A DNA stretch of 64,000 nucleotides, from NCBI RefSeq assembly GCF_003711225.1, contig NZ_CP031030.1, forward strand, positions 372,001-436,000, written 5' to 3'. The position numbers and the translations under genes were made by a program. Below, piece by piece: positions 7,609 through 55,634 of this stretch; the stretch's first letter is position 1; every line of letters starts with the position of its first letter. Origin of the DNA: Runella sp. SP2 (GTDB taxonomy: Bacteria; Bacteroidota; Bacteroidia; Cytophagales; Spirosomataceae). Below the pieces are notes generated by a model. The model was not told where the DNA came from. It saw only the letters and a list, made by a program, of their open reading frames with translations, and did no database searches.

Positions 7609-8243
7609 GAGGGTAGGTGAGTTAAATGTTCGGGTAAAGATACATTTTTACTGAATTCATTCCCCACGGGAGTTTCGCGAACGGTACGTAGCGGAATCAG
7701 CCCCGACCAAATCGGCAGTTCTTGGTCTTCTTCGTCGTCTTTAGGCATTCCTGTGCGTAGCTTTGCCGATGCTTCTGCAATGGGAAACGACAAAACGGTG
7801 GTTTTACGAACTTCGCTTTCCGTCATGGGGCGCAGGTATTCCCAACTGTTTGGGACAATTTTTTCTGTGACCCAACGGAGTGCGTCCCATTTAAGGGTAG
7901 CGTCTTCTACTTTTTCGGCGTTAGAAAAAACCACGACCGAACGATAATTGACCGAATGATGAAAGGCTGATTTGGCCACCACCAAGGCATCAGTCAACAT
8001 GACCGAAATACAAACGGGAACGCCTTTTTCTAGTTCTCGAATAAAATGACTCCCTACTGAACCATGAATATAAATACGGTCTTCGTAGCGGGCAAATGCC
8101 GTAGGAAGTGCAAAAGGTTGTCCGTCGATGGTAAAACTTACGGTACAAAACATCGATTCGTCCAAAATCGAATAAACGGTTTCTTCGTCGTACTGAGCGC
8201 GTTTGGCCAAACGGCTTGGAGTTGTGCGTGGTGTTGGCTGCAT
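7605..8243 (-). CDS. pyridoxamine 5'-phosphate oxidase-like flavoprotein
   Basis: A split-barrel FMN-binding protein of the Pyridox_ox_2/NimA-like group: CTVSFTIDGQPFALPTAFARYED followed by YIHGSVGSHFIRELEKG covers the conserved flavin-binding strands. I use the ATG at 8243. A TTG seven codons earlier falls inside a TACTTTTG box (8262-8269) that is probably the promoter. The family includes B6-vitamer oxidases and various flavin reductases, and the real substrate cannot be told. It heads an operon and is divergent from an M20 hydrolase-MocR pair, which points to a B6- or amino-acid-linked role. Confidence 0.85.
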   Translation of the reverse strand: MQPTPRTTPSRLAKRAQYDEETVYSILDESMFCTVSFTIDGQPFALPTAFARYEDRIYIHGSVGSHFIRELEKGVPVCISVMLTDALVVAKSAFHHSVNYRSVVVFSNAEKVEDATLKWDALRWVTEKIVPNSWEYLRPMTESEVRKTTVLSFPIAEASAKLRTGMPKDDEEDQELPIWSGLIPLRTVRETPVGNEFSKNVSLPEHLTHLPS

Positions 8244-9777: not shown

Positions 9778-11235
9778 ATGCTTGTCCATCAGCTACAATT
9801 ATCTATTGATAAAAACGCCAAGCAGCCTGCGTATTTGCAATTGGCCAATCAGCTGATTCAGTTGATTCGGACGGGTGAGCTGCGGGCGGGGCAAAAATTG
9901 ATTGGTACTCGATCATTGGCCGAACTGCTTGATATTCACCGAAAAACGGTCGTGCAAGCCTATGACGAACTGTTGGTACAAGGTTGGCTAGAAAGCAAAA
10001 CGGGCAGCGGGACGTACGTAGCTGAGACGTTACCCGAAGTTGAACCCCAAAAACTGAGTAAACAGACGCTCGAAAAAGTAAATCCTGCCAAAAAAGCAGG
10101 GTTTACTTTTTCAGAACCACTCCACCTGCGTCGCGATGTGCTAACGTCGGGGTATGCTTTGCATTTGGACGATGGTTTTCCTGATCCGCGCTTGGCGCCG
10201 CTCGCCGAATTAAGTCGCGTGTATCGAAGTCAATTACTGTTGGGGAATCAGTATGTAAAATTGGGCTACGGAGATACCAAAGGGTCGGGTTGGTTGCGAC
10301 AAGAACTTTCGACCTATTTGAACGAAACCCGTGGACTTAAAATTACGCCCGAAAATATCCTGATTACGCGTGGCACGGTCATGGGCATCCACTTAGCGAG
10401 CGCGGGGTTGGTACAACGCGGTGACGTGGTCGTGACGGGAAAAATGAGTTGGGGAACGGCTACGACCAATTTTGTACAGGCGGGCGCGCACATTGAGCAA
10501 ATTGAGGTGGATGAATATGGGCTGGTTGTAGAAGAGCTGGAAAAACTATGCCAACGTAAACCTGTTCGTTTGGTTTATGTAACCTCCCACCACGACTATC
10601 CGACGACCGTGACTCTGCGCGCCGACCGCCGATTGAATTTACTGAAATTGGCTGAAAAATACGGTTTTATTGTCTTTGAAGACGATTACGACTACGATTT
10701 TCACTACCTAAGCAAGCCCTTATTACCGTTGGCGAGTGCCGACCGCGCGGGCATGGTGCTGTATTGTGGGTCGTTTACGAAAGCCATTTCGCCCGCCTTT
10801 CGGGTGGGGTATTTGGTGGGGCCAGAGGATGTCATTGCGCATTTGGCACGCCTGCGGCGGATCATCGACCGACAAGGTGACTTGATGCTGGAAAATACCG
10901 TGGCCGAACTCCTTCAAACGGGCGTCATAGAACGGCATTTGCGAAAATCGCTGAAAGAATACCGCAAACGGCGGGATGTCTTTGCCGAATTACTTCAAAA
11001 TGAATTGAGCGATTATGTACAGTTTCAACTTCCCGACGGCGGCATGGCGATTTGGACGTTGTTTGATAAAGGTGTTGATATAGAACGTTTTGCAGAACGT
11101 TGCCTCAAACAAGAGCTCTTTTTTTCCAACGGGAAACACCTTCACCCAACCCTCAATGGCACGCGACTGGGGTTTGCATCGTCGAACGAAGAGGAATTGG
11201 TAAGATGTGTGGAGGTAATGAAGCGAAACCTTTGA
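9778..11235 (+). CDS. MocR/PdxR-type regulator (GntR HTH + aminotransferase fold)
   Basis: A 485-residue regulator with an N-terminal GntR winged helix (about 15-85, containing TRSLAELLDIHRKTVVQAYDEL and SGSGTYV) joined to a class I aminotransferase-like domain. The PLP-binding lysine is K335 in GSFTKAISPAFRVGY, and the upstream EDDYDYDF motif supplies the pyridine-ring Asp. MocR proteins use PLP or a PLP-amino acid adduct as effector and often act on divergent genes. The direct repeat at 8294-8326 is its likely operator. The gene is 5 bp after the amidohydrolase. Confidence 0.92.
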   Translation: MLVHQLQLSIDKNAKQPAYLQLANQLIQLIRTGELRAGQKLIGTRSLAELLDIHRKTVVQAYDELLVQGWLESKTGSGTYVAETLPEVEPQKLSKQTLEKVNPAKKAGFTFSEPLHLRRDVLTSGYALHLDDGFPDPRLAPLAELSRVYRSQLLLGNQYVKLGYGDTKGSGWLRQELSTYLNETRGLKITPENILITRGTVMGIHLASAGLVQRGDVVVTGKMSWGTATTNFVQAGAHIEQIEVDEYGLVVEELEKLCQRKPVRLVYVTSHHDYPTTVTLRADRRLNLLKLAEKYGFIVFEDDYDYDFHYLSKPLLPLASADRAGMVLYCGSFTKAISPAFRVGYLVGPEDVIAHLARLRRIIDRQGDLMLENTVAELLQTGVIERHLRKSLKEYRKRRDVFAELLQNELSDYVQFQLPDGGMAIWTLFDKGVDIERFAERCLKQELFFSNGKHLHPTLNGTRLGFASSNEEELVRCVEVMKRNL

Positions 11236-11238
11236 CGT

Positions 11239-14202
11239 TTAAGCATACTCACTTGGTGAAATACCGTACCGTTCGCTAAATACTTTAGAGAAGTACGGTA
11301 AACTTTCAAAACCCACTTTATAAGCTATTTCTGAAACGGTTCCTGCGTTGGTTTGGAGCATATCAGCTGCTATTTGGAGACGATAGTTTCGAACGTATTC
11401 GGTTACGGTTTGGTTGGTGAGCGCTTTCAATTTACGACGTAGCTGCACGGACGTTAAGCCCATTGCTGCGGCAAACTGGTCAACGTCAAAGCTACTTTCG
11501 GTATAGTTTTTGGCTAAAACGTCGGTTACTTTTTGTAAAAATAAGTCATCCATCGACGCTGCTGGAACGACTTCGTCGGCCACCTGAGCTACTGGAGCCA
11601 AATGAGCGTACTTTTGTTGGAGCAATTGTTGTTTTTTGAGCAAATTCTGGATTCGCACTTGCAACTCTTCCGTATAAAACGGTTTCGACAGATAATCGTC
11701 GGCACCTATCTCAAGCCCTTCGAGTCGGTCGTTAAGCGTAGCTTTTGCAGTAAGCATCACGACAGGAATGTGATTGGTACGAATGTCAGTTTTGAGGGCT
11801 TTACAAAAGCCAAACCCATCCAGCCGTGGCATCATAACGTCACAAATAACAACGTCAGGAATTAGTTCGGTAGCCATTTGGAGACCGATTTGGCCGTCTT
11901 GCGCTTCTTCAATTCGATACGTACTGCTAAAAATACTTCGGATATAGTGGCGCAAATCGGGGTTGTCTTCGACAATAAGTAGGAGTGGAGCTTCGCTATT
12001 TTTATCGACAACAGGAGCTTCGATTGAGCTTGAAACACTAGATTCAAACACCATTGGTGCACCCAATTTTTCAACAGTTGTTTGACTAGCATGAACAAAC
12101 TCACTCCAATGGGCAGCATCGCAGGGGAGAGTCACGACAAAAGTGGTTCCTTTTTCGGGCTTGCTTGTCACGTCAATCGTCCCTCTGAGGGCTAAAACCA
12201 ATTCTTTCACCAAGGCCAATCCAATACCCGTCCCTTCGTAGTGGCGTCGTTGGCTGTCATCAATTTGGTAAAAACGGTCAAAAATTCGGTGAAGTCGTTC
12301 GGCATCAATTCCAATCCCGTTGTCAGCCACTGTTAACGTAAGGAGTGCGCCTTTCTCATTACCTTCTCCTTCGGGAGTAGTGTACTGTACATTCACTTTT
12401 ACGCGCCCATTTTCATTGGTAAACTTAAAAGCATTAGACAATAAGTTGGTGACGATTTTTTCCAGTTTATCCTCGTCAAAATAGGCAAGGCATTTTTGAT
12501 GACTTTGCGTTCGTTCAAAAATGATTTGTTTGCTTTGCGCGAGCGACTCAAAGGACGCAAATTGGTAACGTAAAAAATGGGCTACGTCGCCATACTGAAT
12601 GATGGGTTCTAGCTTCCCAACTTCGAGTTTAGAAAGGTCAAGGAGTTGATTGATAAGGTTTTGGAGGCGAGATAGGTTTCGTTGCATGATAGGAATCATG
12701 CCTTCGGTGGGGTATTTTTTGCCTAGCTCAGCCAACGGGCCAACGAGCAGGGTTAGGGGGGTGCGAAACTCGTGCGAAATATTGGTAAAAAAGCGCGTTT
12801 TGGTTTCGTCCAACGCCATCAATCGTTCGGCTTCTTTTTGCTCAAAAGACAAGCGTCGCATTAATTCTTCGCGTCGTGTTTTTTGGCGGTAATAAACAAA
12901 GTAAGCACCAAACAAAACGATGGCAAGTACCAAAGAGACGGCCAATATCCAAAAACGCGCATTCTGTGCTTGTTCATTTGCAAGTTCGGCTTGAAGCTTG
13001 TTTTTTTCTACGTCAAACCGTACTGAAGCTTCTGAGGTAATGGCTTTAATTTCTTGTTCATTGCTAACAATTAATTCTTCATAATATCTTTTTCGGTGAT
13101 AATAAGCGCTTTTAAAATCTCCTATTAACGAATCGGCAATCATGCGATTGTTGTATAATGATGCGACCAAAGCGTGATAGTCACGCTTGTCGGGGTCAGA
13201 GTTCAGCGTGAAAATTGCTTTATCAAAATACCGTGCAACGTCTGCTTTATTTCCTTTTACGCCCGCTACCTGGCACAAATTCCCATAAGCCTTGGCAATA
13301 TCGCCCAACCCTTTGGGTTTGTAACGTTGCCGATATACTAGCTCTTGCTTGAAATAAGGCTCTGACTGGGCAGGGTTAGGGGAGGTATTGAGGATGATTT
13401 CGCCAATATTACCATTGATAGTTCCAATTTTCAAGCTATCTCTGCGCAGTCGTACTTGGGCAATCGCCAATTTGTTGTACTTAATGGCTTGGCTATATTG
13501 CTTTAAATAGACCAAACAGTTGGCGTAATTTTTGTAAAACTCAATTCGATAACGGTCAATAGGGTCTTTGGCTAAATACTTCTCTCCTTCTCTAAAATAT
13601 TTGATGGCCGTCTTAAAATCAGAGACCTGGTTCATGTAGTACGTTCCGAGGCGGTTGAGCTTGTGGTCTGCTAACAAGACATTGTCATAGCCTATTTTCC
13701 TAAAAAACAGGTCCGCCGTAAGGAAATGATTGACGAGGGTGACAGAATTGGCACGATCGTCGTAGAGGATTATGCCCATTCTAAATTCTATATAAGCTCT
13801 AATTCGGTCGGTTAAAAGGGTTTGGGGGAGTTTGGCTAACTCATCCAACAATTTTTTCATTTCTAAATACTTAGAGCTAGGCTTGGGAACTGGTTTAAAG
13901 GTAAAGTACCTGAGGGTTAGATAATTGTTAAAAATACGGAGTGCCTTGTCTTGCGATTGGTTGGCGTAGAGCTCAATCGCGTTCAAATCAGCAGCCATCG
14001 AAGCGCTGTCAGGTTCTTCGTTTGCCCAAATAAAGTGCATTTCAAGACTGTCTAACCGAGCTAGGTCTTTTAGCTTTAAAAATGAAGCTATCTTGGGGCT
14101 TTGAGCGTTCAAAGGCGTAGCACTTGATGACCCCAAAAATAGGAGAATGAACAGGATGGATGCTGCTAAACGTTTATTTTTAAAGGGAGAAAGAGTAGGC
14201 AT
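11239..14202 (-). CDS. hybrid histidine kinase/response regulator with AraC output (TPR sensor)
   Basis: A 987-residue one-protein phosphorelay. A signal peptide is followed by a periplasmic TPR-type sensor (about 35-395) and one transmembrane helix near 415-435. A short coiled coil leads into HisKA (phospho-acceptor His in FFTNISHEFRTPLTLL) and HATPase_c (DNGIGIDAERL, GTGIGLALVKEL). A receiver domain follows (phospho-acceptor Asp in VVICDVMMPRLDG), then an AraC-type HTH at the C-terminus (VSEIAYKVGFESLPYFSKVF). The target genes are unknown. The giant adhesin gene lies directly upstream on the same strand and is a candidate, but the two are separated by a terminator and an inverted repeat. 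Confidence 0.93.
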   Translation of the reverse strand: MPTLSPFKNKRLAASILFILLFLGSSSATPLNAQSPKIASFLKLKDLARLDSLEMHFIWANEEPDSASMAADLNAIELYANQSQDKALRIFNNYLTLRYFTFKPVPKPSSKYLEMKKLLDELAKLPQTLLTDRIRAYIEFRMGIILYDDRANSVTLVNHFLTADLFFRKIGYDNVLLADHKLNRLGTYYMNQVSDFKTAIKYFREGEKYLAKDPIDRYRIEFYKNYANCLVYLKQYSQAIKYNKLAIAQVRLRRDSLKIGTINGNIGEIILNTSPNPAQSEPYFKQELVYRQRYKPKGLGDIAKAYGNLCQVAGVKGNKADVARYFDKAIFTLNSDPDKRDYHALVASLYNNRMIADSLIGDFKSAYYHRKRYYEELIVSNEQEIKAITSEASVRFDVEKNKLQAELANEQAQNARFWILAVSLVLAIVLFGAYFVYYRQKTRREELMRRLSFEQKEAERLMALDETKTRFFTNISHEFRTPLTLLVGPLAELGKKYPTEGMIPIMQRNLSRLQNLINQLLDLSKLEVGKLEPIIQYGDVAHFLRYQFASFESLAQSKQIIFERTQSHQKCLAYFDEDKLEKIVTNLLSNAFKFTNENGRVKVNVQYTTPEGEGNEKGALLTLTVADNGIGIDAERLHRIFDRFYQIDDSQRRHYEGTGIGLALVKELVLALRGTIDVTSKPEKGTTFVVTLPCDAAHWSEFVHASQTTVEKLGAPMVFESSVSSSIEAPVVDKNSEAPLLLIVEDNPDLRHYIRSIFSSTYRIEEAQDGQIGLQMATELIPDVVICDVMMPRLDGFGFCKALKTDIRTNHIPVVMLTAKATLNDRLEGLEIGADDYLSKPFYTEELQVRIQNLLKKQQLLQQKYAHLAPVAQVADEVVPAASMDDLFLQKVTDVLAKNYTESSFDVDQFAAAMGLTSVQLRRKLKALTNQTVTEYVRNYRLQIAADMLQTNAGTVSEIAYKVGFESLPYFSKVFSERYGISPSEYA

Positions 14203-14205
14203 TGG

Positions 14206-14264
14206 TCACAATTGAAGTTTTTGCATGGGTTTTTAACCAATACAACAAAATACGTCAATTGTGA
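14206..14264. promoter_or_regulatory. inverted repeat upstream of hybrid kinase gene
   Basis: Perfect 10-bp arms TCACAATTGA (14206-14215) and TCAATTGTGA (14255-14264) enclose 39 bp just before the kinase ATG at 14202. The spacing of about five helical turns between arm starts suits a looping or dimeric operator. An mRNA hairpin is an alternative. Confidence 0.4.
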
Positions 14265-14314
14265 ATTTAGGAAAAAGGGTTTTGTTAAAAAAGATACCAG
14301 AAAGTAGATAATAA

Positions 14315-14349
14315 AATTGGGCTATTGGTATTTCACCAATAGCCCAATT
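14315..14349 (-). terminator. Rho-independent terminator of the 2758-aa adhesin gene
   Basis: A perfect 15-bp stem (AATTGGGCTATTGGT and its complement) has a 5-nt loop and starts 7 bp after the adhesin stop. On the minus strand it is followed by a T-rich tract. It separates the adhesin from the kinase gene. Confidence 0.85.
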
Positions 14350-14355
14350 GCAACT

Positions 14356-16314
14356 TTAATGTACTTTAATGACTTTCAAATGGGTTGACTTATCGGGAGT
14401 CGATACCCGTAGGAAGTAGAGTCCATCGGCAAGTTCGTTGACCCCAAACTCCTCTTGATGGGTGTTGGTTTCGGGTACAAATTGACGACGCAATACCTCC
14501 CGACCCGAAGCATCAGTTAATGCCGCTTGCACCACTTGCCCCTTGCTCTCTTGCACTTTCAAGCGCAGGATGTTGCTGACTGGGTTGGGCATGACTGTGG
14601 CAAAGACGCCGTTATCAGTTATCGGTTGTCCGTTATCCGACCCTTGCTCTTTGCCTCTTGCCACTTCACTATCCGCTGCACGTGCTGCGCCTACGCCTAC
14701 CCCATCTCTTGACTGGATACGGAACCAGTATTCTTGGTAGGCCAACACGTTGCCTTGAGGCTTGCGGGTGGATGGATAAATGCTGCCCCAGCCTTTTTGG
14801 TCCCAATAACGAATGCTCAATTTGTACAACCCTTTGGGTAAACCTGCATCGTACGAATTGCCACCTGCACCGTTGTCTTGGTAGAAGCCATAAGCAGGGT
14901 GATTTTGAGCGTACAACTCCGTCCAGCCCTCGCGGTTGGCGTACATGAAGTATGGTGCATTGTTCTCGTGCGTGTTGAATGAACGAATTACCCCCATTTC
15001 TGGCGTCGCCAACATGTCGAATGTCAATGAGCCGTCAGTGCTTAATCCGCAAGCTTCTACGTTGATTGTCCAGTAACGAGGAGCCATTTTGTTGGCATTC
15101 TCAACGTAGTATAAGGTTGGATTTACCTGCGTACTCTGCTCCAATTCGGGGCCACCGTCGCGGGTGATGAATTGGCTTGTCCACAACGACTTATCGTTGG
15201 CGGGTTTCACTGCCGATTTTGATTCGCCGATGTTAATCAACGTCACCACAAAAGCGTTCCAATAAATGTCCTTTTTCATACTTTCCACACTCTGACAACC
15301 ACCTTCAAAAAGACACTTCGCCCAGTACGTTTGCTTGGTCACGTTGTTAAAAGCTACCTCAAAACTTGGCGCAGTGACACCCGTATTCCAAAACGTCTGA
15401 CTTCCTGCGGGGCAATTGGCCGAAACCGTGACCGTTGTACCTGTGCAAACGATCTCTTGACTTGCCGTAATCACGGGCGCTACTTGCGTTGGTGTCAAAG
15501 TAAACGTTACGACATTACTTTTCTCACTCACGCAACCATTTTCCGTCTGGCAACGAGCGTAGTATGAAGTCGTTTGGCTGGGAACGGTGGCGGGAAGGCT
15601 TGGCAAAGCCACATTCGTGGTGGCATTGTACCAAACTGTCCGCAAGCTTCCACAAGTTGACTGTCCACTGAAACTTGCTGTTGCATCACAACTCGCTGTT
15701 GATGACAAAGATACCGTCGGTGCAGAAGGAATGGTCACCAATTTTAAGCGCATTACCCCTGATTCCGATTCCACACAAGATGGCGTTCCGTCCGATTTGC
15801 GGCAACGTACGCGGTAGTTGTGGAATTGATTGTCCACCAAACCAACTGGTACGCCCGCGCTGTATTCACCACCGTCAACCGAGTAAAGAACCACTTCTCC
15901 AGTTGAACAATTGGCATTAAATGTAAGAGGCATGTTCACCAAACTGCACACTTCCTTCGTCTCCCCTACGGCAACTGTTACTCCATCTACCATTAAAGAC
16001 ACATTTTGAGGAACGGAGGCGCGGTTATTAATCGTCAATTCTATCACGCCCGAGTAGGTCGAAGCGCAATTAGCATCACAGGCCGCTTGGTAGCGGTGGA
16101 GTTGGTTATTGGATGGTTGGGAAACTGGGGCTGTCGCCGACCAGTTGCTCCATGCGCCATTCCCTACTTGAACTCGCCAAACGGGCGAACCCACCACACA
16201 CGAACCCGAAACCGTAAACTGCAAACCGTTAACTGGATTCGCATCCGTGTCGCACAAAACTTGAGAATTGCCTTCGTTTAGCGTTTGTTGAAGCGTAGTC
16301 AACGAAATCGTTGG
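14356..16314 (-). repeat. C-terminal block shared with neighbouring adhesin (copy 1)
   Basis: This segment, from residues PTISLTTLQQ to the stop, is near-identical in DNA and protein to 23195-25150. It encodes Ig-like domains, a conserved globular region and the T9SS sorting domain. Its length of 1959 bp compares with 1956 bp in copy 2. Confidence 0.9.
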
Positions 16315-42053: not shown

Positions 42054-43127
42054 ATGATAAATTGGCAAAAAAAACTCATTTGGAGAATTCGGCTTGGAGA
42101 ACTGCTAGCCGTCGTTGGAGTTTACTTTGTGTTGTATGCTTTGTATTGTTTGACGTTGACATTCAATGAGTTGTCGTACGTTAAAATGACGTATGGCGCA
42201 CTGCTTCTCAACTATGCCGTCAGCCAATTTTTTGATTATGCCTTAAAATTTATCCTGACCATTCCCCTTTGGTATTTCTACTTTCGCGTGATTCCACATT
42301 GGAAGCTTTCGACCAAGATTCTTTTGCACGTATTCACCATGTTACTTTTTGTTTTTACGTGGCAAAAAGCGTTCTATTTTACGATGGAAGCCTTGGGGCG
42401 TGGGCATTTGCGAGGGTCGAGTCAAGTGTGGGATATTTACATTCCTGCGCTTATTTACGTCATTCAATTTGGTTTTTTTCACGCCTACGAATACCATTTG
42501 CACTATCAACGCCAAAAAGAAACTGAAAATGCCCTTCGACAGGCGTCGTTGGAAAGCGAACTTTCGGCCATCAAAGCCCAGCTTAATCCGCATTTTTTGT
42601 ACAACGTCTTCAATACCATCAGCGCGTCGGTACCGCCCGAAATGGAAGACACACGGGAGATGATTGCGAAATTGGCCGATTTGTTTCGGTACCAGTTGAA
42701 AGCATCTCGGGTGGATTTTGTCAAACTGAAAGACGAGATGGAGTTTGTTGAAAAATATCTTGCCTTGGAAAAAGACCGTTTTGGCAGCAGGTTGCAAACA
42801 ACGATTGAGATGGACGAAGCATTGATGTCCGAACGGGTGCCACCGATGTTGCTTCAGCCGATTGTGGAGAATGCCATCAAACACGGTATTTCACCCAAAA
42901 TCGAAGGGGGAGAAGTGAAAATAACAATCAAAAAAAGTACCTACGACTTGATAGTGGAGATTACAGACACGGGGGTTGGGTTGGTCAATGAAGGAGAAAT
43001 TATTGGAAAAGGCGTGGGGTTGACCAACACAAAATTGCGCTTAGAAAAGATGTTTGGGAAAACGTTACATTTTCAACAAAACCAACCGAGCGGTTTTCGA
43101 GTTTGGTTTGAAATACCACTCCAATAA
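42054..43127 (+). CDS. LytS-type sensor histidine kinase
   Basis: A 357-residue kinase with four N-terminal transmembrane helices, then the His_kinase domain (PF06580 type). The phospho-accepting His is in LNPHFLYNVFNTISA, and the ATPase motifs are IVENAIKHGI (N box), DTGVGL (G1) and GKGVGLTNTKLRLEKMFG (G2). It has no periplasmic sensor, so it probably senses membrane state or a partner protein. It is 5 bp upstream of its LytTR response regulator gene. Confidence 0.92.
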   Translation: MINWQKKLIWRIRLGELLAVVGVYFVLYALYCLTLTFNELSYVKMTYGALLLNYAVSQFFDYALKFILTIPLWYFYFRVIPHWKLSTKILLHVFTMLLFVFTWQKAFYFTMEALGRGHLRGSSQVWDIYIPALIYVIQFGFFHAYEYHLHYQRQKETENALRQASLESELSAIKAQLNPHFLYNVFNTISASVPPEMEDTREMIAKLADLFRYQLKASRVDFVKLKDEMEFVEKYLALEKDRFGSRLQTTIEMDEALMSERVPPMLLQPIVENAIKHGISPKIEGGEVKITIKKSTYDLIVEITDTGVGLVNEGEIIGKGVGLTNTKLRLEKMFGKTLHFQQNQPSGFRVWFEIPLQ

Positions 43128-43982: not shown

Positions 43983-45134
43983 TTAAGAGTTGAAAGCTTT
44001 AATGAATTTACTGTGAGCGCCTTTCGCAGATGAAGCAAATAACCCGCCACAATCTGATAATTTACTGCAATTCTGGCATTCATCCAGATAGATATTTTTC
44101 CAATCCGAAATAGATTTACGCATAAAAGGCCAAAGCTCTTCTGGCATCAGGCATAGTTGAATGTTATATATAGATACGTTCATTCCCTGAGTAATAAGAT
44201 ACATTACACTTTCCGTTAATTCACGTTGGTAATCGACTGGATCCATCCACAGGAGTTCAAAGTTGGACCGGGCATAGCCCATATTTTCTAATCCCATGAA
44301 GGCAATATGTTCAACAAAAGGCAAATTTTTGTAGATGTATTGAGCCAACTTTACTAGGCGGGGTATCGTTAATTGATGTAATACAATTCGTATTTCAATC
44401 CGACTGTCATACTTTGCCAAGTTGTAAAGTCCTGAAACGGTTTGTGTAAACGCCCCCTTTGCCTGTACTGTATGATCGTGAATTTGATAATAGTCCGAGT
44501 AAAGGGGGATACCCAGCATACTCCTTCTGTAATTGAGATCCCCGTATCTTTTGGCAAGTTCTGATTTGGCAAAGAGTCTTCCATTAGTCAGAATATGAAG
44601 CTCTGTCTCGGGTAATTCTGATTTCAGCAATTCCAGCAATTCGAAGAATGAATCTCCCAGCAACATAGGCTCGCCTCCTGTAAGACCTAACTCCCTGCAA
44701 TCCTTTGGAAGCATCGGAATGAGTTTTTTATAAAGCCATACAAAATAGGGAATATCATCACGATCTTTAGGGGGCTGTGAACACATCAGACAGTTACTGT
44801 TGCAGCGTTCTGTCAGTAATAGTGTATTATGACGGGAACCGATCCTGTATAGTGTATTTACGTTTCCCTCGGGACTAACCACGACAATATCGCCTTCCTC
44901 AAGATGGGAAAGTGTAGCCAGCCTGTAGACGACCGGCAAACCTGACTGCGCAGTAGGCTCATACTGCTGAGAGGTAAGAATACCGATGTAATGGCCAGTG
45001 GTTTTCGTATCTACGTTTGGTGTGAGTAAAAAATAGGATAGTTCTGTTTCCTTATTTATGTTCCTGGTTACCCTTCCTACCAAAGGAGAATTTATCCCGC
45101 GAGCAATGCCACGTATATGTAATAACGTTGTCAT
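43983..45134 (-). CDS. hxsC: His-Xaa-Ser system radical SAM maturase HxsC
   Basis: 383 residues from the ATG at 45134 (MTTLLHIRGIA). Starting there leaves a 13-bp gap to hxsB, whereas the longer frame to 45197 would overlap it. The radical SAM cluster motif is C111-NSN-C115-LM-C118, followed by the SAM-binding GGEP (GLTGGEPMLLG). A C-terminal cysteine cluster (CQNCSKLSDCGG) may hold an auxiliary site. HxsC is one of two radical SAM proteins that always accompany the His-Xaa-Ser repeat peptide HxsA. The chemistry is expected to be a covalent change in the HxS region. It is the last gene of the operon. Confidence 0.88.
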   Translation of the reverse strand: MTTLLHIRGIARGINSPLVGRVTRNINKETELSYFLLTPNVDTKTTGHYIGILTSQQYEPTAQSGLPVVYRLATLSHLEEGDIVVVSPEGNVNTLYRIGSRHNTLLLTERCNSNCLMCSQPPKDRDDIPYFVWLYKKLIPMLPKDCRELGLTGGEPMLLGDSFFELLELLKSELPETELHILTNGRLFAKSELAKRYGDLNYRRSMLGIPLYSDYYQIHDHTVQAKGAFTQTVSGLYNLAKYDSRIEIRIVLHQLTIPRLVKLAQYIYKNLPFVEHIAFMGLENMGYARSNFELLWMDPVDYQRELTESVMYLITQGMNVSIYNIQLCLMPEELWPFMRKSISDWKNIYLDECQNCSKLSDCGGLFASSAKGAHSKFIKAFNS

Positions 45135-45147
45135 GGTTTTAAAGCTT

Positions 45148-46641
45148 TTAACAATTACTGACCCAACGGCTGAAAATCGCAAGTACTTCCTGATCATTAT
45201 CCATCAGTTCCAGCAGATAACGAATAATTTCCATGTTCTTTTGACAAAAACCGCTGTCTGGACGATAGCCCGCCATATCTCCCTGAGTGGCATGGTGATA
45301 TACAGGGTCGGCACCGCAGTAGCTTTGGAACGCACAATCCGAACACCCGGCTAAGGATTCATTTGACCAATTCTGAGCTATTTCATAGGCTTTCGGTCCG
45401 TAAAAAATATCCTCATATGAATTTTTATTCAAATCCCCCAGGCAAAAGGTGTCATCCTGCATCTCGGCCAGCATTCGGGCTTCATCGGAAGCATAGATTT
45501 TTCCATTATAGTTAAACAGCACAACGCTGTTAATAAGGCCAGACGGGGATTGTAAATCTACATAACCAACTGGAAAGGGAGTAAGGATTTTTCTCAGTAT
45601 GATGCTCGCATAATCCTCCACCAGATGGTAGCCCTGTCGATTATAGGCCAGAATATGCTCCAGCGCCCTTTTATAGAACTTCAGAAAAGTTTCTGTCTCA
45701 TAGCTGTTTTTTCGAACGTTTCGACGCGCGAATCCATAAGGGCTTATCGGGCGCAGAAAAATGTTTTTAAAGCCTAATTTTACGTATTCATCCACTATTT
45801 CTACAGGATAGTCCAGTGAACGCGAGGCTGTTGTCATCAGTGCCGACACCTTTTCTTCTCCCAGTACCTGCCTTGCACGTTCAATGCCTTTTACCGCCAT
45901 TTCATAACTATTATTGCCCAGACGCTTGCGATTCGCATTATGCAAGTTACTTGGTCCATCAATGGAGGTGGATAAAAGAATACCGTGTTCTCGACAGAAC
46001 GCCAGTATGTCCTCGGTTAAAGGGGCTAAATTAGAACAGATGACAATGTTTAGTTGTTTCCCCAATTGACGCGCCAAGGATTCAGCCTTTCGGACGGCAT
46101 ACACAATCTTCTCAAAGGCCAGTAAAGGTTCCCCTCCCTGAAATTCGAGTGTTACATTGGGATTCGGCGATTGCATCATCAGTTCAATACCTTTGTCCAA
46201 GTGGTCATACGACATATCAAAGGCGCTTTTATCCTGAGTTACCCGTGATACCTGACAGTAATGACAGGTGTGTTCACACCGAAGGGTAAGTACAAAAATG
46301 TGCAAAGCTGTAAAATCATCTAAAAATGACTTCTTGGTACGATATCTGGTAGCGAGCACATCAATAAGCGGGGGAACAGGGGTTTGAGAAATAAAAAAAT
46401 TGGCTGTCAAATCGGCATATAGTTCTTCTTCTTGTTTAATTCTGCGTTCCACGATTCTTTGTGCTGTTCCCTGGGGGACCATTAAATAATCACCTACCTC
46501 GTTAACCAAGACTTCTCGCTCTGTATTAAGAGCTGCAAAGCGAAACGGCAACAGGTAATAATTTGCATTGTTTGCAGTGCTGAAATTAGAAAGAGATTTA
46601 AAGGCCCTGAACTCTTTCTGTTTTTGTGAAAGGCTTTCCAA
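45148..46641 (-). CDS. hxsB: His-Xaa-Ser system radical SAM maturase HxsB
   Basis: A 497-residue radical SAM/SPASM-type maturase. The cluster motif is C122-EHT-C126-HY-C129, followed by EFQGGEPLLAF and STSIDGPSNLHNANR, the usual SAM-binding and barrel motifs. The C-terminal cysteines (CSDCAFQSYCGADP, then CQKN) fit a SPASM auxiliary cluster domain. It belongs to the peptide-maturase branch that includes the HxsB family, and its position next to hxsC supports this. It lies 6 bp after the MBOAT gene, so it is probably translated from the same mRNA. Confidence 0.88.
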   Translation of the reverse strand: MESLSQKQKEFRAFKSLSNFSTANNANYYLLPFRFAALNTEREVLVNEVGDYLMVPQGTAQRIVERRIKQEEELYADLTANFFISQTPVPPLIDVLATRYRTKKSFLDDFTALHIFVLTLRCEHTCHYCQVSRVTQDKSAFDMSYDHLDKGIELMMQSPNPNVTLEFQGGEPLLAFEKIVYAVRKAESLARQLGKQLNIVICSNLAPLTEDILAFCREHGILLSTSIDGPSNLHNANRKRLGNNSYEMAVKGIERARQVLGEEKVSALMTTASRSLDYPVEIVDEYVKLGFKNIFLRPISPYGFARRNVRKNSYETETFLKFYKRALEHILAYNRQGYHLVEDYASIILRKILTPFPVGYVDLQSPSGLINSVVLFNYNGKIYASDEARMLAEMQDDTFCLGDLNKNSYEDIFYGPKAYEIAQNWSNESLAGCSDCAFQSYCGADPVYHHATQGDMAGYRPDSGFCQKNMEIIRYLLELMDNDQEVLAIFSRWVSNC

Positions 46642-46647
46642 AGTATT

Positions 46648-48039
46648 TTAAAATTGATAGTAAATGAATGAATTGCTGGCCCAATCTCCAAAAAGTATCA
46701 TCAGAATAAGCAGCAAATCCATAAGAATAAGGCGTTTTATACTGATGGTTCGATCAATTGGTGATTGCAGTAAATTTTTCAGAATACCTGTGTACTCAAT
46801 CAATAGAAAGAGTAACAGCAGGGAAAGAATAATACTCAGAGAAGCTGGACTTATTATTGTATGTTGATACAGTTGCTGAAGCCCCTCAGTTGCTGCCTGA
46901 GATAATGATAATACGTGAATGTGCGAAAAGGAAGTGAATATATAAACCGCCTGAGACAGAGATTGAGCTCGGAAAAATACCCATCCCAATGTTACCAGTG
47001 TAAACGTTAGAGCTACCTGCAATGCATACGGTATCCGAATCAAAATTTTTTGACCTTCATGGGTAATTATATAGAGTATTCCGTGAAAAAGACCCCAGGC
47101 GACAAAGGTTAAATTAGCACCGTGCCAAAGGCCGCTTAATAAAAATACTAGAAGTATCCTCGCCTTGTGAGGCACAACTTTTTCAAGAGGGACATAAAGA
47201 TAATCTTTGAACCAGTAGTGTAATGTACGGTGCCAACGTTGCCAAAAAATCTGCAATGAAGATGAGCCGAAAGGATTACAGAAGTTGGGTGATAAGTTGA
47301 CACCAAATGTCAGAGCAGCTCCTCGGGCGATGTCTGTGTAGCCCGAAAAATCGCAGTATATCTGTCCAGAAAACAAGATAGTAGCTGCCAGTAACAGAAT
47401 TGGATTGAATAGTTGAGGATTCGAAAATACTGGATCAACTACCAAAGCCAATTTATCGGCCACTAGAACTTTTTTATAATATCCCCAAACAATAAACTTA
47501 GTGCCCTGTACAATCCAGCTAAACTGAGTGGGAGATTTGAAGGTGAGCTGTGGAATCAATGTCCCGACCCGTTCTATGGGACCCGCCAGCAGTTGAGGGA
47601 AAAAAGCTTTGAAAAGTGCGAACGAAAGCAAATCGGGAGGGGCTGTCTCTCTTCGGTACACATCAATCAGATAAGAAATAGCCTGTAAGCATATAAAAGA
47701 AATCCCTAACGGCAGAACTAAAGATGTAACTGGGGAGAATCCGATTGCCTCCAAAAAGAAATTTCGATATTTAAAATAAGACAGTAAAGCTATATTTAAT
47801 CCAATACCCGCCGCTAACAATTCTTTTCTGTGACCTGTAGATTTGTCAAGCCATAGAGAGATTATAAAATTTAGTATGGTGGAACCCAGAAGCAGTGGCA
47901 GGAACAACGGATTCCACCAGCCATAAAAAAAATAACTGGACAGCAATAACCAGTGTAATCTCTGGCGTGCTGGCAGCAGATTAAACAGCGTCAAAACTGT
48001 CAGTAAGAAAATTACAAATGGGATGGAATTAAACAGCAT
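46648..48039 (-). CDS. MBOAT O-acyltransferase (AlgI/DltB-like)
   Basis: 463 residues from the ATG at 48039; a longer frame overlaps the previous gene. Multiple membrane helices with the AlgI signature order: YCDFSGYTDIARG (228-240), FWQRWHRTLHYWFKDYLYVPL (from 265) and the catalytic His306 in SGLWHGAN. AlgI-type enzymes pass acyl groups across the membrane to a periplasmic partner. Here the partner is probably the SGNH protein encoded just upstream. It lies between hxsA and hxsB, which suggests that an Hxs product or an associated wall polymer is acylated. No alginate or teichoic acid genes are nearby. Confidence 0.92.
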   Translation of the reverse strand: MLFNSIPFVIFLLTVLTLFNLLPARQRLHWLLLSSYFFYGWWNPLFLPLLLGSTILNFIISLWLDKSTGHRKELLAAGIGLNIALLSYFKYRNFFLEAIGFSPVTSLVLPLGISFICLQAISYLIDVYRRETAPPDLLSFALFKAFFPQLLAGPIERVGTLIPQLTFKSPTQFSWIVQGTKFIVWGYYKKVLVADKLALVVDPVFSNPQLFNPILLLAATILFSGQIYCDFSGYTDIARGAALTFGVNLSPNFCNPFGSSSLQIFWQRWHRTLHYWFKDYLYVPLEKVVPHKARILLVFLLSGLWHGANLTFVAWGLFHGILYIITHEGQKILIRIPYALQVALTFTLVTLGWVFFRAQSLSQAVYIFTSFSHIHVLSLSQAATEGLQQLYQHTIISPASLSIILSLLLLFLLIEYTGILKNLLQSPIDRTISIKRLILMDLLLILMILFGDWASNSFIYYQF

Positions 48040-48062
48040 TTGATGAAAGGTTCTGCCTGCAG

Positions 48063-50084
48063 CTACCGTCCCAACGGTTTTCGGTAAATACTTTGAAACA
48101 TACCAAACTTGCCAGCATAAGCGATAACACTTTCTTTGGGATGGTAGACGGGATCCCATTCATCTCCCAATGAACGGGTAAGTTGCCGATTTTGCCCACT
48201 GCTGAGCGAAAGTTCAAAAAGGTCCCAGTTGCCATTTTTTCTAGCAGTGTATAAGATGTAAGAACCGTCGGGTGAAATCACTGGATCCCACTCGTCAAAG
48301 GAAGTACGAGTAAGCTGTTCTTCTTTCTCGGTTTTTAAATCCAATTTATATAGATCAAAATTACCGTTACGCTTGGATATATAAATTACAAAATCTTCAT
48401 TAGGGGCTATTACTGGCCGCCAGCTCTCAAATAGACCTCGTGTTACAGCTTTTTTAGTTCCGAGTTCCATATCTAAAAGAATTATTTGTGGATTTGAATA
48501 TTGCTCAGTTTTCGCGTCATAGAACCAGCCAGCATATGTTAGGTGCCGACCGCTGGGTGAGAAGGTTGCGATTGCTCCATACTCATTCTTACCATTGGTG
48601 ATATACCGTCGATTGGAACCGTTTGAGTTCATTATCGCCACCTTAGTTTGGTTTTCTGCTGGGTCGCCTTCCGTAAAAACAATTAAGGATTGGTTTGGCG
48701 AAAGCATCGGATGGCTTTCATCAACCTTATTAAAAGTTAGCCGATGAGACTGATTATTCTTCATTTCATTAAGGAATAGCTCCATCGTGCCGTCACGGAT
48801 TGATTGATAAGTAAAAAGCTGTCCATCTAGGCTGTAGGCAGGATATCTGTCTGAAAACAGTTCCTTACTAATAAGATTCACATCGCTAGACTCATCTTTT
48901 AAATGACGGCTGATAATGTCCGCTGTTGTTTGATGGCCATGTGGATTAAGATGTTCATCATACTCAAAAAACTGTAATTGAGTAATCTCCTGAAAGCCTG
49001 GCAGTAAATCAATCAATTGAATATGGAGTGAATCTGCCAAATGGCTTACAATTTTATTCGGCTTGAGTAAATCCAATTGCTCGGGATGTATCTTAAATGA
49101 AGTGATAACCTCATCCAGGTAACGGAAATAAGTCTGTTCTTTAGTGGGAATAAGAATTATGACTAGTTCAGCACCATCGGCTTTTACTTCTTGAGCCAGA
49201 GCGGAAACATAATGAGCGAATGCCTTTAAATCAGCTTCTTTAACGGAAGAAGTTTCGTTGTAGAATATATTGTAGGTCGCATTATCCTTTTGGGTAGGAT
49301 AAAAAGGCTCTGTCCATCTTCCCAGAGGCAATTCCCCTGGAGGCTTGTAACGGATGTTAAACAGTAGGTAACGAGCTAGATCTGAGTATTGCATGAGATA
49401 CTCTGTCCATGAATTACGGCGAGGAGCAACATTCATGAAGTCATTGAAATTGCAAATTTGCAGGAAAACCTTTTTTGGTTTTAATTTCCTTCCTTCAGCT
49501 CGGTAATAGTGATACTCGTCGGCGACAGAAAAACCGCTGATTCCCGCATTAACAATTACTTTGTTTGGAAAATAACGATAAAGTTGAGAGGTATAAAGTT
49601 CTTCGAACGGAACCTGAGCGCCCTGCGTGAAGGAATCACCAAGAAATAACCAGTCGCAATGCGTAACATTTTCATTGGCGGCAGCAAATTCAGGAATTCT
49701 GTATCCCTGTTGATTTGTTTTATAAGTAACTGAATACTCTTTATCTTCCAGATGAGAAAGCAGATGGGGCTTATTAAAGTAATAATCGTCTCGAATTGTA
49801 TAAAGATTTTCAATTACATACTCGGGGAATCCATGTCGAAATGTGACTTCGAGATGGAAGCATATCGATCCTACGGTTAATACGTTAACCAGAAGTGTGA
49901 AAGCCCAATCTGCTCCTTTTAGATAAGTATAAATCAGTAGAAAGGTAAAGCTGGCTACAGACCCAATACACCAGCCGATACTTCCCGTAAGCAGGAAAAC
50001 GATAACCGGGTTGAACAGCAAAAGTGCCAGCAGTAAAGGCAGAAGGATTGATTTTTGTACGTGCTTGAAGAACAATACTGCCAT
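48063..50084 (-). CDS. SGNH-fold acyltransferase/esterase fused to a TolB-like propeller
   Basis: 673 residues. Two to three N-terminal membrane helices (about 12-75) anchor a periplasmic SGNH domain with block I GDSFTQG (S151), block II NAGISGFS, block III NFND and block V DEHLNPHGH (D376, H378), so the triad looks intact. Residues about 410-670 form a PD40/TolB-type propeller, with repeats such as DEWDPVISPDGSYILYTARKNG. AlgJ/AlgX-like SGNH proteins complete the acyl transfer begun by MBOAT proteins, and this gene is 23 bp before one. I do not know another case of an SGNH domain joined to a TolB propeller in an Hxs operon. Confidence 0.85.
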   Translation of the reverse strand: MAVLFFKHVQKSILLPLLLALLLFNPVIVFLLTGSIGWCIGSVASFTFLLIYTYLKGADWAFTLLVNVLTVGSICFHLEVTFRHGFPEYVIENLYTIRDDYYFNKPHLLSHLEDKEYSVTYKTNQQGYRIPEFAAANENVTHCDWLFLGDSFTQGAQVPFEELYTSQLYRYFPNKVIVNAGISGFSVADEYHYYRAEGRKLKPKKVFLQICNFNDFMNVAPRRNSWTEYLMQYSDLARYLLFNIRYKPPGELPLGRWTEPFYPTQKDNATYNIFYNETSSVKEADLKAFAHYVSALAQEVKADGAELVIILIPTKEQTYFRYLDEVITSFKIHPEQLDLLKPNKIVSHLADSLHIQLIDLLPGFQEITQLQFFEYDEHLNPHGHQTTADIISRHLKDESSDVNLISKELFSDRYPAYSLDGQLFTYQSIRDGTMELFLNEMKNNQSHRLTFNKVDESHPMLSPNQSLIVFTEGDPAENQTKVAIMNSNGSNRRYITNGKNEYGAIATFSPSGRHLTYAGWFYDAKTEQYSNPQIILLDMELGTKKAVTRGLFESWRPVIAPNEDFVIYISKRNGNFDLYKLDLKTEKEEQLTRTSFDEWDPVISPDGSYILYTARKNGNWDLFELSLSSGQNRQLTRSLGDEWDPVYHPKESVIAYAGKFGMFQSIYRKPLGR

Positions 50085-50091
50085 AATTAGA

Positions 50092-50952
50092 CTATTGTTG
50101 TTGAAGCAGTTGCAATAAAGTTCTGTCTACAACCCCTGTTTGAGAAAGCCCGCGTGACAGTTGAAATGCTTTTACTGCCGCTTCGGTTGCGTCATCAAAT
50201 CTATTATTGAGACCCTCTCCATCCCGTTGTTTTAATAATTTTTTTCTTACAAGCAGTTTTTTCAATTCAAGGACTTCCTGCCCGGTATTTCCCCAGCTTA
50301 GTGAACTGTAGCTGTTACTTAAGCCTTCTGATGGAGATGCTGTTGATTTAAGATACATTAAAACGTTAGGACTCACTACTCCATCAACCTTCAGATTATT
50401 TTTCTGCTGAAACTGCTTAACAGCTGTTTCGGTTTGTGAATTAAAATAGTTTTCAAGCAGGGATGATATCTCAATAGTATACCCAAGTGTTCGCAGGAGC
50501 TGCTTTAGTTGTACGACATCGGCTCCTTCATCATTAAAACGCAGCGTACGATCTCCCAGACTGTATTTGGGAGTGCCTGTAGTAAAAGAATTGGTGCCGG
50601 ACGAGGATCCTGACGAACTGGAACGGCCTGAGGAAGACGAACCAGAGCTGCCCCTATAGCCTGAGGAAGATGAACCGGAACTGCCTCCATAGCTGGAATA
50701 ATGTGACCGATGCGATGAATGTGAGCGATGTGAGCGGTGAAAATTCCCTTCATAAGTTCCAGTTTCACTATTCATACGTTTAAGAATGAAACCAGGTTTC
50801 TTTAAAATACTAGTAAAATTTCGATTCATCATCTCACTATCATATGTGATTTTGGTAAACTCAGGAATTTCAGCGGCGGCGGCTTGCTCATTGATATTGG
50901 TTATAGCCGTTAATGCAATGCTCTGAAGAAGAAGAGGTAGCTTTTTTTTCAT
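50092..50952 (-). CDS. hxsA: His-Xaa-Ser repeat protein HxsA
   Basis: 286 residues. A signal peptide (to about residue 27, EQAAAAE) is followed by a lead segment and five consecutive HxS triplets at 72-86 (HRSHRSHSSHRSHYS). A Ser/Gly-rich linker runs to about 120, and two peptidoglycan-binding (PG_binding_1) domains follow: about 125-205 (VVQLKQLLRTLGYTIE, AVKQFQQKNNLKVDG) and about 220-283 (VLELKKLLVRKKLL, AVKAFQLSRGLSQTG). The HRSHxSHxSH pattern is the defining feature of HxsA, the presumed substrate of HxsB and HxsC. The export signal and wall-binding domains predict a modified protein bound to peptidoglycan. It is the first gene of the five-gene operon. Confidence 0.9.
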   Translation of the reverse strand: MKKKLPLLLQSIALTAITNINEQAAAAEIPEFTKITYDSEMMNRNFTSILKKPGFILKRMNSETGTYEGNFHRSHRSHSSHRSHYSSYGGSSGSSSSGYRGSSGSSSSGRSSSSGSSSGTNSFTTGTPKYSLGDRTLRFNDEGADVVQLKQLLRTLGYTIEISSLLENYFNSQTETAVKQFQQKNNLKVDGVVSPNVLMYLKSTASPSEGLSNSYSSLSWGNTGQEVLELKKLLVRKKLLKQRDGEGLNNRFDDATEAAVKAFQLSRGLSQTGVVDRTLLQLLQQQ

Positions 50953-51035
50953 AATGATAAAAGTATGATAATTTTTCAGAGGAAAAATATATGTTTGAAA
51001 AAAAATATTATCTTACCTAAATAAATGTTTCTCAT

Positions 51036-51416
51036 ATGTCGATGCTGCCAACTGGATTGTGTGATCAAATAACAGTAGATTTTCTGGAATTGCATCTTGA
51101 TGCGCAGGTGTTTAGCCGGGAAGGAATTCTTAAGTGCTTTTATTGGTATTCAAATGTATATCTAATTGAATTAATCCGTGAAGGGAATTGCTTTAAAGTG
51201 ATTATTAGTTCTAAAAGTGAAACTGGCTTAACTGAACCAGAATACCTTTATAAAAAAATAAAACAGGATCTGCTTGACTTTCAACTTCGGGAAATAATTA
51301 CTATACAAACTGCGAATGTTCGTGACCTTTTGATTGCTAAAGCATTTGCAAATGGTGCACTTGAACAAGAGATAGATGGTAATTTTGGAGACCCTCTTCA
51401 ATCGCTAGAAAGATAA
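51036..51416 (+). CDS. hxsD: His-Xaa-Ser system protein HxsD
   Basis: 126 residues with no signal peptide. The segment DLLDFQLRE at 78-86 matches the LLNDYxLRE signature of HxsD, and RDLLIAKAF follows it as in the family. Its biochemical role is unknown, but it is a constant partner of HxsA, HxsB and HxsC and may bind the precursor. It is transcribed divergently from hxsA across an 83-bp AT-rich gap, so the two share a promoter region. A degraded IS3-type element starts about 20 bp beyond its stop. Confidence 0.85.
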   Translation: MSMLPTGLCDQITVDFLELHLDAQVFSREGILKCFYWYSNVYLIELIREGNCFKVIISSKSETGLTEPEYLYKKIKQDLLDFQLREIITIQTANVRDLLIAKAFANGALEQEIDGNFGDPLQSLER

Positions 51417-51435: not shown

Positions 51436-52240
51436 CTACCTGCTTTCTGATGCAACCATTTTATAGTAGATACTCTGATTTTTCCTTTCAAAAGCATCAG
51501 GGGTTAAATAATTGATAGACTTGTGAGGTCGATCAAAATGATATGCCTGATACCACTGTCCAAGTGTTGGTTGAGTTCTGAGAGTGAATAAAACTAATTC
51601 AAATTTAAGCATTCTCTTCTGAGTGTACCATTGAGTTGCTCGATGATGCCATTTTGGACGGTCCGCCGCGCAGTCCTTTTCTTGAACATTCATCCACAAT
51701 GTTGATAATACGTACCCATTGTTGAGTAGGTTCAATAATGACTTCTGAAAAAAAATCCATAGCCCAGCTTTTATTAATAGACTTAGGTGATAATAAATCC
51801 CCGAATTCTTCGCGGATTCGGGCTTTTTGAGGCTTTCTGTGCAAGCTTAATTGTGCTTGTTTGTACAAACGATGTCCTCGCTTTTTATAAAAAATGTCTC
51901 CCTTGTTGCGTAAATAGGCATAAATCATCGCAAATCCCCATACAATATGATCTTTTCATACTGATTTGTATAAATCAACTAATACCGTATCAGAGATTTC
52001 TTTATCTTGTTTCAGTTTACAATGACGACGAGCATACACCGTTTGTCGTCTCCAAGTTAAAAACTTATAAAGTTTGCGTAGGCTTAGACCTTGATTCTTC
52101 ACTTGGACTTAGCTCAAAAGTTAATCTTTTTCTTCTGAGCTACAAGCTTTTTTGCAATTTCCAATGCATCGCTGATGACTCGCTTTTCCAATCTAATTCA
52201 GCGTACATCCGCGCGGGATTGGCTATCCACGACCCAGTTT
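51436..52240 (-). pseudogene. degraded IS3-family insertion element
   Basis: Fragments of an IS3-type transposase lie in several frames. At the right end (52120-52240), pieces of OrfA (RMYAELDWK, then DALEIAKKLVAQKKK) are frame-shifted. OrfB follows with an in-frame stop after LVDLYKSV, then AYLRNKGDIFYKKRGHRLYKQ, SWAMDFFSEVI (first catalytic Asp), and the C-terminal HFDRPHKSINYLTPDAF motif in another frame. No clear terminal inverted repeats were seen. The element is inactive and lies between hxsD and the AAA pseudogene. Confidence 0.8.
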
Positions 52241-54866: not shown

Positions 54867-55634
54867 TTAATTAAGAAACAAAGAATCTTGATGCCATAAA
54901 TGGCGTTCAAGGCTAACAAACCACGCTGAATCATCAAATAAACCAGGTGCTTCTCTCAAAATCACCTTCTCATTGATTAGAAGATGCTTTTGATTTGGAA
55001 TATATTTCTGAATAAGTGCACCTTCAGAATCCACGATTCTGTGTATAGGTAGGTTGTCATCTGATTTAGTAATATACGTTGGTATTGCCCTGAGGTAGCT
55101 TTCAGCAACCCCCATACCACGAGTAATTTCTTTATAAGTGACAACTTTTCCTTCAGGTATTTGCGAAACAAAGTGTTTAAATCGGTCAAAAGGAAGATCT
55201 GAGAGTGGATCGAAAATAGAAGGTAATAGAGTGGCTTCCATATTTTCATGAATTATTCCACTCTCAATTACTACCCCTAATATTCCTCTTCGACCCATAA
55301 TTTCAGAGGGCTTTACAAATTGGCTGATTCTTTTGCACGGCTCGCAGTTAAAAGTCAATCTAATCTTTACGTCGCCCAATACTAATAAACTACCAGGCTT
55401 AAAAAAGGATAGATCTAAGTTTTTAAGCACTATATTTTCGCGAAGGCCTCCTGGTGGAATATTAAAGTATTCTAAATCCTCATTAATAACGATAAGAACT
55501 TGCCTTGGGCTCATAATATCGGCATTAATATCACCTTTGATACCAAAACCTCTTATTAATTCCATCTCATCTGTTCGTAGCATAGGGAAACCATGCCGCT
55601 CTTTTATAAAGAGTGATTGAATTTGTGCTTTCAT
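54867..55634 (-). CDS. MOSC domain fused to an alkyltransferase-like (ATL) domain
   Basis: 255 residues. Residues 1-135 form a MOSC domain (GIKGDINAD, PRQVLIV, GGLRENIVL, FNCEPC with Cys97 and Cys100, RRGILGVV). Residues about 150-210 resemble the DNA-binding half of O6-alkylguanine transferases: F-S-Q-I-P-E-G-K-V-V-T-Y-K-E-I, then an Arg-finger-like R182, then PIHR at 196-199. MGMT enzymes have PCHR with the alkyl-accepting Cys; here it is Ile, as in non-catalytic ATL proteins (usually PWHR). MOSC proteins such as YcbX act on hydroxylated bases, so a role in damaged or modified bases is possible. It starts 1 bp after the next gene's stop. Confidence 0.75.
   Translation of the reverse strand: MKAQIQSLFIKERHGFPMLRTDEMELIRGFGIKGDINADIMSPRQVLIVINEDLEYFNIPPGGLRENIVLKNLDLSFFKPGSLLVLGDVKIRLTFNCEPCKRISQFVKPSEIMGRRGILGVVIESGIIHENMEATLLPSIFDPLSDLPFDRFKHFVSQIPEGKVVTYKEITRGMGVAESYLRAIPTYITKSDDNLPIHRIVDSEGALIQKYIPNQKHLLINEKVILREAPGLFDDSAWFVSLERHLWHQDSLFLN

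Follow-up and report, generated by a model that had tools for sequence, protein, structure and literature searches.

A 64,000-nucleotide stretch of the 7.6 Mb genome of Runella sp. SP2 (Bacteroidota; contig NZ_CP031030.1, positions 372,001 to 436,000; hereafter the window) harbors an Hxs locus in which a membrane-bound O-acyltransferase (MBOAT) gene and a gene joining an SGNH domain to a TolB-type propeller lie between hxsA and hxsB, and a survey of other Hxs loci supports the conclusion that this pair is tied to Hxs and is no chance neighbor. That the pair and Hxs are functionally coupled is well supported, and the locus, which spans window positions 43983 to 51416, can be proposed with moderate confidence as a distinct Hxs subtype that links a radical SAM maturation set, in which HxsB, HxsC and HxsD act on HxsA, with an acyl relay across the membrane. 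Hxs itself, on which Haft and Basu reportedly carried out earlier work (cited in PMC9062424), is already known as a system; the subtype bearing the MBOAT/SGNH acyl-transfer pair appears to be new.

The association was assessed in a census of 95 Hxs loci (94 fetched loci and the window), reduced to 91 distinct loci after recognition of four duplicates by contig, the surroundings of which were scanned for relatives of the window genes. The census is weighted toward relatives of the Bacteroidota HxsB (the best 80 of at least 518 confirmed), the neighbors of distant Klebsiella-type HxsB proteins falling outside it. Both the SGNH-propeller and the MBOAT genes lie beside Hxs in 6 of the 91 loci: the window, three loci from genomes of the same family (L017, L018 and L019), one from the Sphingobacteriaceae (Parapedobacter defluvii, L046) and one from the Flavobacteriaceae (a Tenacibaculum metagenome-assembled genome, MAG, L041). 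The initial annotation had proposed such a count, holding that absence of the pair from all other Hxs loci would speak against its interpretation; the pair recurs in five of them. The Bacteroidota-type HxsB clade contains the pair in 6 of its 35 rows (one row being a Leptospira plasmid), against 0 of the 56 distinct loci outside it (seven of which are included in the HxsB tree). In eight clade loci without the pair, the sequence on one flank of hxsB is shorter than 6.8 kb, and in two of them (L026 and L036) the downstream part is shorter than 2.1 kb, so that the pair could be missed there. Gene order takes three forms among the pair-bearing loci: hxsA-SGNH-MBOAT-hxsB-hxsC with hxsD divergent in the window, MBOAT-SGNH-hxsA divergent from hxsD-hxsB-hxsC in L041, and hxsA-hxsD-hxsB-hxsC-SGNH-MBOAT in L046, L017, L018 and L019. 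One further locus, from Neopusillimonas (L090), combines Hxs with a distant SGNH-propeller gene, its product 22% identical to that of the window, and a carbamoyltransferase gene, no MBOAT gene being found within the stretch scanned.

At the genome level, the family has 5 HxsB-positive genomes (E <= 1e-60) out of 222, a sample of the order 8 of 390 and a sample of the phylum 2 of 395, the host being counted in each, and HxsB is missing from all 12 further genomes of the genus that were listed. Searches for the SGNH-propeller in the family, phylum and class, in which the best 3–5 first-look candidates per genome were scored, recovered it in 4 of the 222 family genomes, all four within the five that are HxsB-positive (the exact probability of this overlap, uncorrected for kinship, is 5e-8); it was not found in the 217 Hxs-negative family genomes, and the host was its only source among 395 genomes sampled from the phylum and 350 from the class. 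When all candidates were scored in six genomes that have Hxs but no linked pair, no full-length SGNH-propeller was detected, and a propeller-only match lies elsewhere in the genome in the host and in G196, the fifth HxsB-positive family genome. Used as a query, the SGNH-propeller protein matched 7 plasmid records, each over 19–38% of its length in the C-terminal half, and gave five short and weak matches on viral contigs.

The HxS core of HxsA follows the same pattern. The core HRSHRSHSSHRSH(Y/M)S is shared by 6 of 6 pair-bearing loci, which outside this core have HxsA proteins only 32–55% identical to each other (75% for L018 and L019). Pairwise comparisons at HxsB identities of 50–70%, which are not independent of one another, were drawn from 33 loci whose core is readable and whose HxsB score is high; they revealed cores at most one letter apart in 13 of 13 comparisons between pair-bearing loci, 18 of 317 between loci lacking the pair, and 0 of 162 mixed comparisons. 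HxsB is 53–63% identical among the window, L041, L046 and the L017–L019 group, and the SGNH and HxsB trees agree, save for an unresolved placement of the window and L041. L107 and L044, which lack the pair, have five-triplet cores of a different sequence, and four loci (L064, L084, L100 and L016) have two HxS-repeat genes each near hxsB. The interpretation put forward in the initial annotation, that a radical SAM-modified HxsA is acylated or anchors an acylated wall polymer, is thus supported in part: its link between pair and Hxs holds, given the five additional loci, the lack of SGNH-propellers found in Hxs-negative relatives and the single core type, and the acceptor that it named is weighed below.

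The MBOAT gene (46648–48039, minus strand; 48159 in the longest open reading frame; PF03062, 77 bits against a cut-off of 27) encodes a protein in which the WHG histidine is conserved and the C-terminus reads FIYYQF, an instance of the FXYXXF motif. Both features are also present in the MBOAT proteins of L046 and L018, each ending in FLYFKF; the split L017 gene ends in VLYFNF, and that of L041 runs off the end of its contig. Against the DltB model TIGR04091 the window protein scores 118.9 bits, far below 375, and its nearest solved relatives by sequence are the DltB chains 6bug (81.8 bits) and 8jem (81.6 bits). In PatA, the tyrosine of the corresponding C-terminal motif undergoes auto-acetylation and passes the acetyl group to PatB (PMC12148441), and the presence of FXYXXF at the C-terminus of the MBOAT protein gives the acyl-transfer idea of the initial annotation a residue-level basis. 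In L017, hxsC (10524–11683) and the MBOAT gene (13573–15059) each consist of two overlapping frames, through either decay or sequencing error.

The SGNH-propeller gene (48063–50084, minus strand) encodes a protein with predicted N-terminal membrane helices that exceeds the cut-offs for PD40 (59.2 against 20.9 bits) and ALGX (31.4 against 26.5) and falls just below that for GDSL (32.5 against 32.9). The expected SGNH residues are found at G149–S151, N214–D215, D376 and H378; S151, N214, D376 and H378 are invariant in 7 of 7 SGNH-propeller sequences, and the GDS and DEH motifs are kept in the six close ones. The SGNH catalytic residues are intact, in line with the intact active-site motifs first annotated. 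Through its C-terminal propeller, the predicted model of the protein (pLDDT 80.5) matches TolB (2w8b_B) with a Z-score of 28.6 and an rmsd of 2.5 over 245 aligned residues; the sequence reaches 104 of the 343 bits required by TIGR02800. TolB is part of a peptidoglycan-associated system.

Because the MBOAT sequence combines WHG and FXYXXF, as in PatA, and the partner sequence brings together SGNH residues, predicted N-terminal helices and a TolB-type propeller, the two probably relay an acyl group to an extracytoplasmic acceptor. In the proposed mechanism, HxsB and HxsC would act on the five HxS triplets of the HxsA core while the protein is still cytoplasmic, as the families of these two enzymes suggest, and HxsA would be exported and bind peptidoglycan through two PG_binding_1 domains, these wall-binding domains being the reason to expect export. 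The MBOAT protein would draw an acyl group from a donor in the cytoplasm and load it onto the tyrosine of FIYYQF, by analogy with PatA, and the membrane-anchored SGNH domain could take this group on its catalytic serine and pass it to an acceptor outside the cytoplasm, possibly positioned by the TolB-type propeller. The acceptor is rather probably peptidoglycan or an adjacent glycan, the most conservative option; HxsA itself, through hydroxyls of the HxS core or of the Ser-rich linker, is a somewhat less probable and the most novel one. No glycosyltransferase was found in the 10 flank genes scanned in pair-bearing loci or the 9 scanned in the window, which sample the flanks in part, leaving HxsA as the only dedicated candidate acceptor seen at the locus. 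Carbamoyltransferases, which usually act on sugar or small-molecule hydroxyls, occur in 3 of the 91 loci (3 of the 7 with an SGNH-propeller and 0 of the 84 others), a confinement that suggests a hydroxyl-rich acceptor decorated in more than one way. A bolder extension, unlikely on present evidence, is that the relay acylates the ribosomally made, radical SAM-modified HxsA and not a polysaccharide, yielding a doubly modified, wall-bound surface protein akin to ribosomally synthesized and post-translationally modified peptides (RiPPs), with a core that co-evolved with the acyl-transfer enzymes and, in some loci, with a carbamoyltransferase as a substitute or further decorating enzyme.

Several observations weigh against an acyl-relay subtype of Hxs. 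The pair is not seen in 85 of the 91 loci, and G196 has no full-length SGNH-propeller genome-wide. Among the pair-bearing loci, the L019 MBOAT frame stops early and lacks FXYXXF, and that of L017 is split. A crude hydropathy scan of HxsA revealed no strong signal peptide, the N-terminus being weakly hydrophobic (best 0.85 over 19 residues). The window MBOAT protein is closer to two unlinked MBOAT proteins of the host genome (252 and 239 bits), both of which end in FIYFQF, than to Hxs-linked ones (at most 200 bits), and hence looks like a general donor module, with the SGNH-propeller as the Hxs-specific part. On the HxsB tree the distribution of the pair requires only about two changes, and thus few evolutionary events; pair-bearing loci form basal branches of the Bacteroidota HxsB clade, their single origin is not rejected (p-AU 0.129), and two Corallococcus loci (L082 and L087) carry the identical core without the pair, so that core and pair may be ancestral and have been lost together once. 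Regarding the acceptor, peptidoglycan is present in any case, and the available part of PMC12148441 names cell-envelope polymers, not proteins, as MBOAT-SGNH targets.

The alternative that survives best, although it remains rather doubtful, is that the pair constitutes a PatAB-like O-acylation module for peptidoglycan or another glycan, carried on the same mobile island as Hxs, and that HxsA only anchors at or senses the acylated wall without being acylated itself. The two peptidoglycan-binding domains of HxsA, the kinship of the propeller with TolB and its peptidoglycan-associated role, and the carbamoyltransferases, with their usual sugar or small-molecule substrates, in 3 of 7 SGNH-propeller loci are all in keeping with such a module. 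So are the MBOAT-SGNH pairs named in the accessible portion of PMC12148441, which act on peptidoglycan, alginate, cellulose, secondary wall polysaccharides and teichoic acid. A general wall modifier, however, would be oddly missing from the 217 Hxs-negative family genomes in which no SGNH-propeller was found; the type of HxS core tracks the pair, and no polysaccharide synthesis gene appears among the flank genes scanned. That pair and Hxs simply co-travel on mobile DNA from one ancestral cassette, without joint function and with the common core as the ancestral state, is improbable: it agrees with the basal position of the pair-bearing loci, with the integrase and TraG-like genes to the right of the window locus and the relaxase near L018, and with the identical core of Corallococcus, but the six genes have been kept together through three gene orders, HxsB identities of 53–63% imply ample time for loss, and the core has stayed frozen as the remainder of HxsA diverged.

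Profile matches and translations place all four Hxs components in the window, as the initial annotation had it. The two radical SAM maturases exceed their NCBIfam cut-offs: hxsC (43983–45197, minus strand; internal ATG at 45134 as the likelier start) scores 382 bits against 267.9 for TIGR03977 and encodes a CxxxCxxC motif, and hxsB (45148–46641, minus strand), of the radical SAM/SPASM type, scores 602.7 bits against 370 for TIGR03978, with residues C122, C126, C129 and C433, C436, C442, C466 invariant in 10 sequences. The hxsA gene (50092–50952, minus strand) encodes the HRSHRSHSSHRSHYS core, in which the five HxS triplets reported earlier read HRS-HRS-HSS-HRS-HYS, a Ser/Gly-rich linker and two PG_binding_1 stretches (Pfam); its product matches the Hxs target in position, core and domains, yet falls outside the curated TIGR03979 model (66.8 bits, cut-off 121.65). 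On the opposite strand, hxsD (51036–51416, plus strand; TIGR03976, 65 bits against 50) encodes the DLLDFQLRE signature, and the predicted model of HxsD (pLDDT 86.8) has a beta-alpha-beta-beta-long helix fold. As a candidate RiPP recognition element (RRE, PqqD-like), this model had no Foldseek match at E <= 0.001; the best Z-score was 7.0 and RREs were absent among the matches listed.

The order and tight spacing originally described, with the pair between hxsA and hxsB, are borne out by gaps of 7 bp between hxsA and the SGNH gene, 23 bp between the SGNH and MBOAT genes if the latter starts at the internal ATG at 48039, and 6 bp between the MBOAT gene and hxsB; hxsB and hxsC overlap, or are separated by 13 bp if hxsC starts at 45134. 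The term operon fits the five minus-strand genes in a row but does not extend to hxsD, which diverges from hxsA across an 83-bp intergenic region (50953–51035), so that an operon would comprise five genes at most. Within this region, TATGTTTG at 50990 (plus strand) shows a possible resemblance to the consensus of the Bacteroidota -7 box; promoter and terminator scans gave the same outcome for real and shuffled sequence.

To the left of the locus lie a TonB-type receptor, a LytTR-system kinase and its regulator. In G165, one of four same-genus genomes tried, this block occurs without Hxs and is followed by a gene unmatched in the window, which makes the locus look like acquired DNA. To the right, near the phage-type integrase and the TraG-like gene, two overlapping minus-strand frames at 51436–51928 appear by eye to be IS3-type transposase remnants (51605–51928 has no Pfam match), and a minus-strand gene adjoining the integrase (54867–55634) encodes a fusion of MOSC and 6-O-methylguanine methyltransferase DNA-binding domains. 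Repeats of at least 24 bases were not found between positions 43000 and 64000, nor tRNA genes in the window, and the precise limits of the presumed island were not located. HxsB was matched in 392 plasmid records (E <= 1e-40), 315 of them predicted to be conjugative and 316 from Klebsiella (33% identity among the matches listed), and the Hxs set of a Leptospira interrogans plasmid (L107) is Bacteroidota-like.

Other genes recur near Hxs loci. The carbamoyltransferases, of NodU/CmcH type, lie at 8718–10535 in L041, beside a weak SxtJ-like membrane protein (20.4 of 24.4 bits), at 7787–9634 in L046 and at 13216–15084 in L090; such an enzyme was ruled out as part of the window, the one copy of the host lying about 180 kb away. 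A few genes from the Hxs-pair-carbamoyltransferase cluster of L046 is a Pycsar effector-type membrane protein (10286–10795; PF18967, 49.7 bits). Relatives of a DNA/RNA non-specific endonuclease occur in L041 (7067–8173), L104 (5858–6883), L059 (13259–14248), L051, L091 and L092, spanning Bacteroidota, Acidobacteriota and Gammaproteobacteria, and L108 and L109 have annotated thermonuclease genes near hxsC. Small SAM-dependent methyltransferase genes are found in nine loci (phmmer E <= 1e-4; L059, at 12621–13253, L056, L065, L093, L102, L053, L051, L091 and L092) and represent a possible additional tailoring step. A 730-residue protein is encoded beside Hxs in Nannocystis and a Deltaproteobacteria MAG (L086, 13292–15493, without a Pfam match in this copy, and L067, 5691–7883), and related frames in L082 and L087 cluster with it.

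Hxs is widespread, yet no description of its product, role or chemistry was found in the open literature; the available parts of two articles concerning Hxs (PMC9062424; PMC8446631) describe neither its chemistry nor the MBOAT/SGNH pair, and no account of the association was found in the open literature, subscription journals being mostly outside this scope. An acyl-relay subtype would narrow the compartment of Hxs to the envelope and supply deletable genes with a predicted mass shift. The presence of the pair on a mobile Hxs cluster hints at double decoration of a wall-binding protein, or of the wall that it binds, and if HxsA were the acceptor, ribosomal peptides would join envelope polysaccharides as substrates of MBOAT-SGNH chemistry.

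Compared with the known Hxs system (TIGR03976–TIGR03979), the window locus shares HxsB, HxsC and HxsD above cut-off, and the HxS repeats and peptidoglycan-binding domains of HxsA; it differs in an HxsA below cut-off, a divergent hxsD, the addition of the SGNH-propeller and MBOAT genes, and a near-fixed five-triplet core. The C-terminal propeller resembles TolB of the Tol-Pal system (Z 28.6), but is part of a fusion with an SGNH domain that has predicted membrane helices, and stays under the TIGR02800 cut-off. With the DltB/DltD D-alanylation system the locus shares DltB as the nearest solved MBOAT relative by sequence, but its TIGR04091 score is far below cut-off and the shuttle motif lies on the MBOAT protein itself, as in PatA. 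Parallels are also found in the PatA/PatB, AlgI/AlgJ/AlgX and WssH/WssI O-acetylation systems as presented in the available part of PMC12148441, with which the locus shares the MBOAT WHG histidine and FXYXXF motif and an SGNH partner with predicted helices and catalytic residues; unlike them, it has no polysaccharide genes in the flanks scanned, and its SGNH domain is fused to a TolB-type propeller and encoded beside a radical SAM peptide system.

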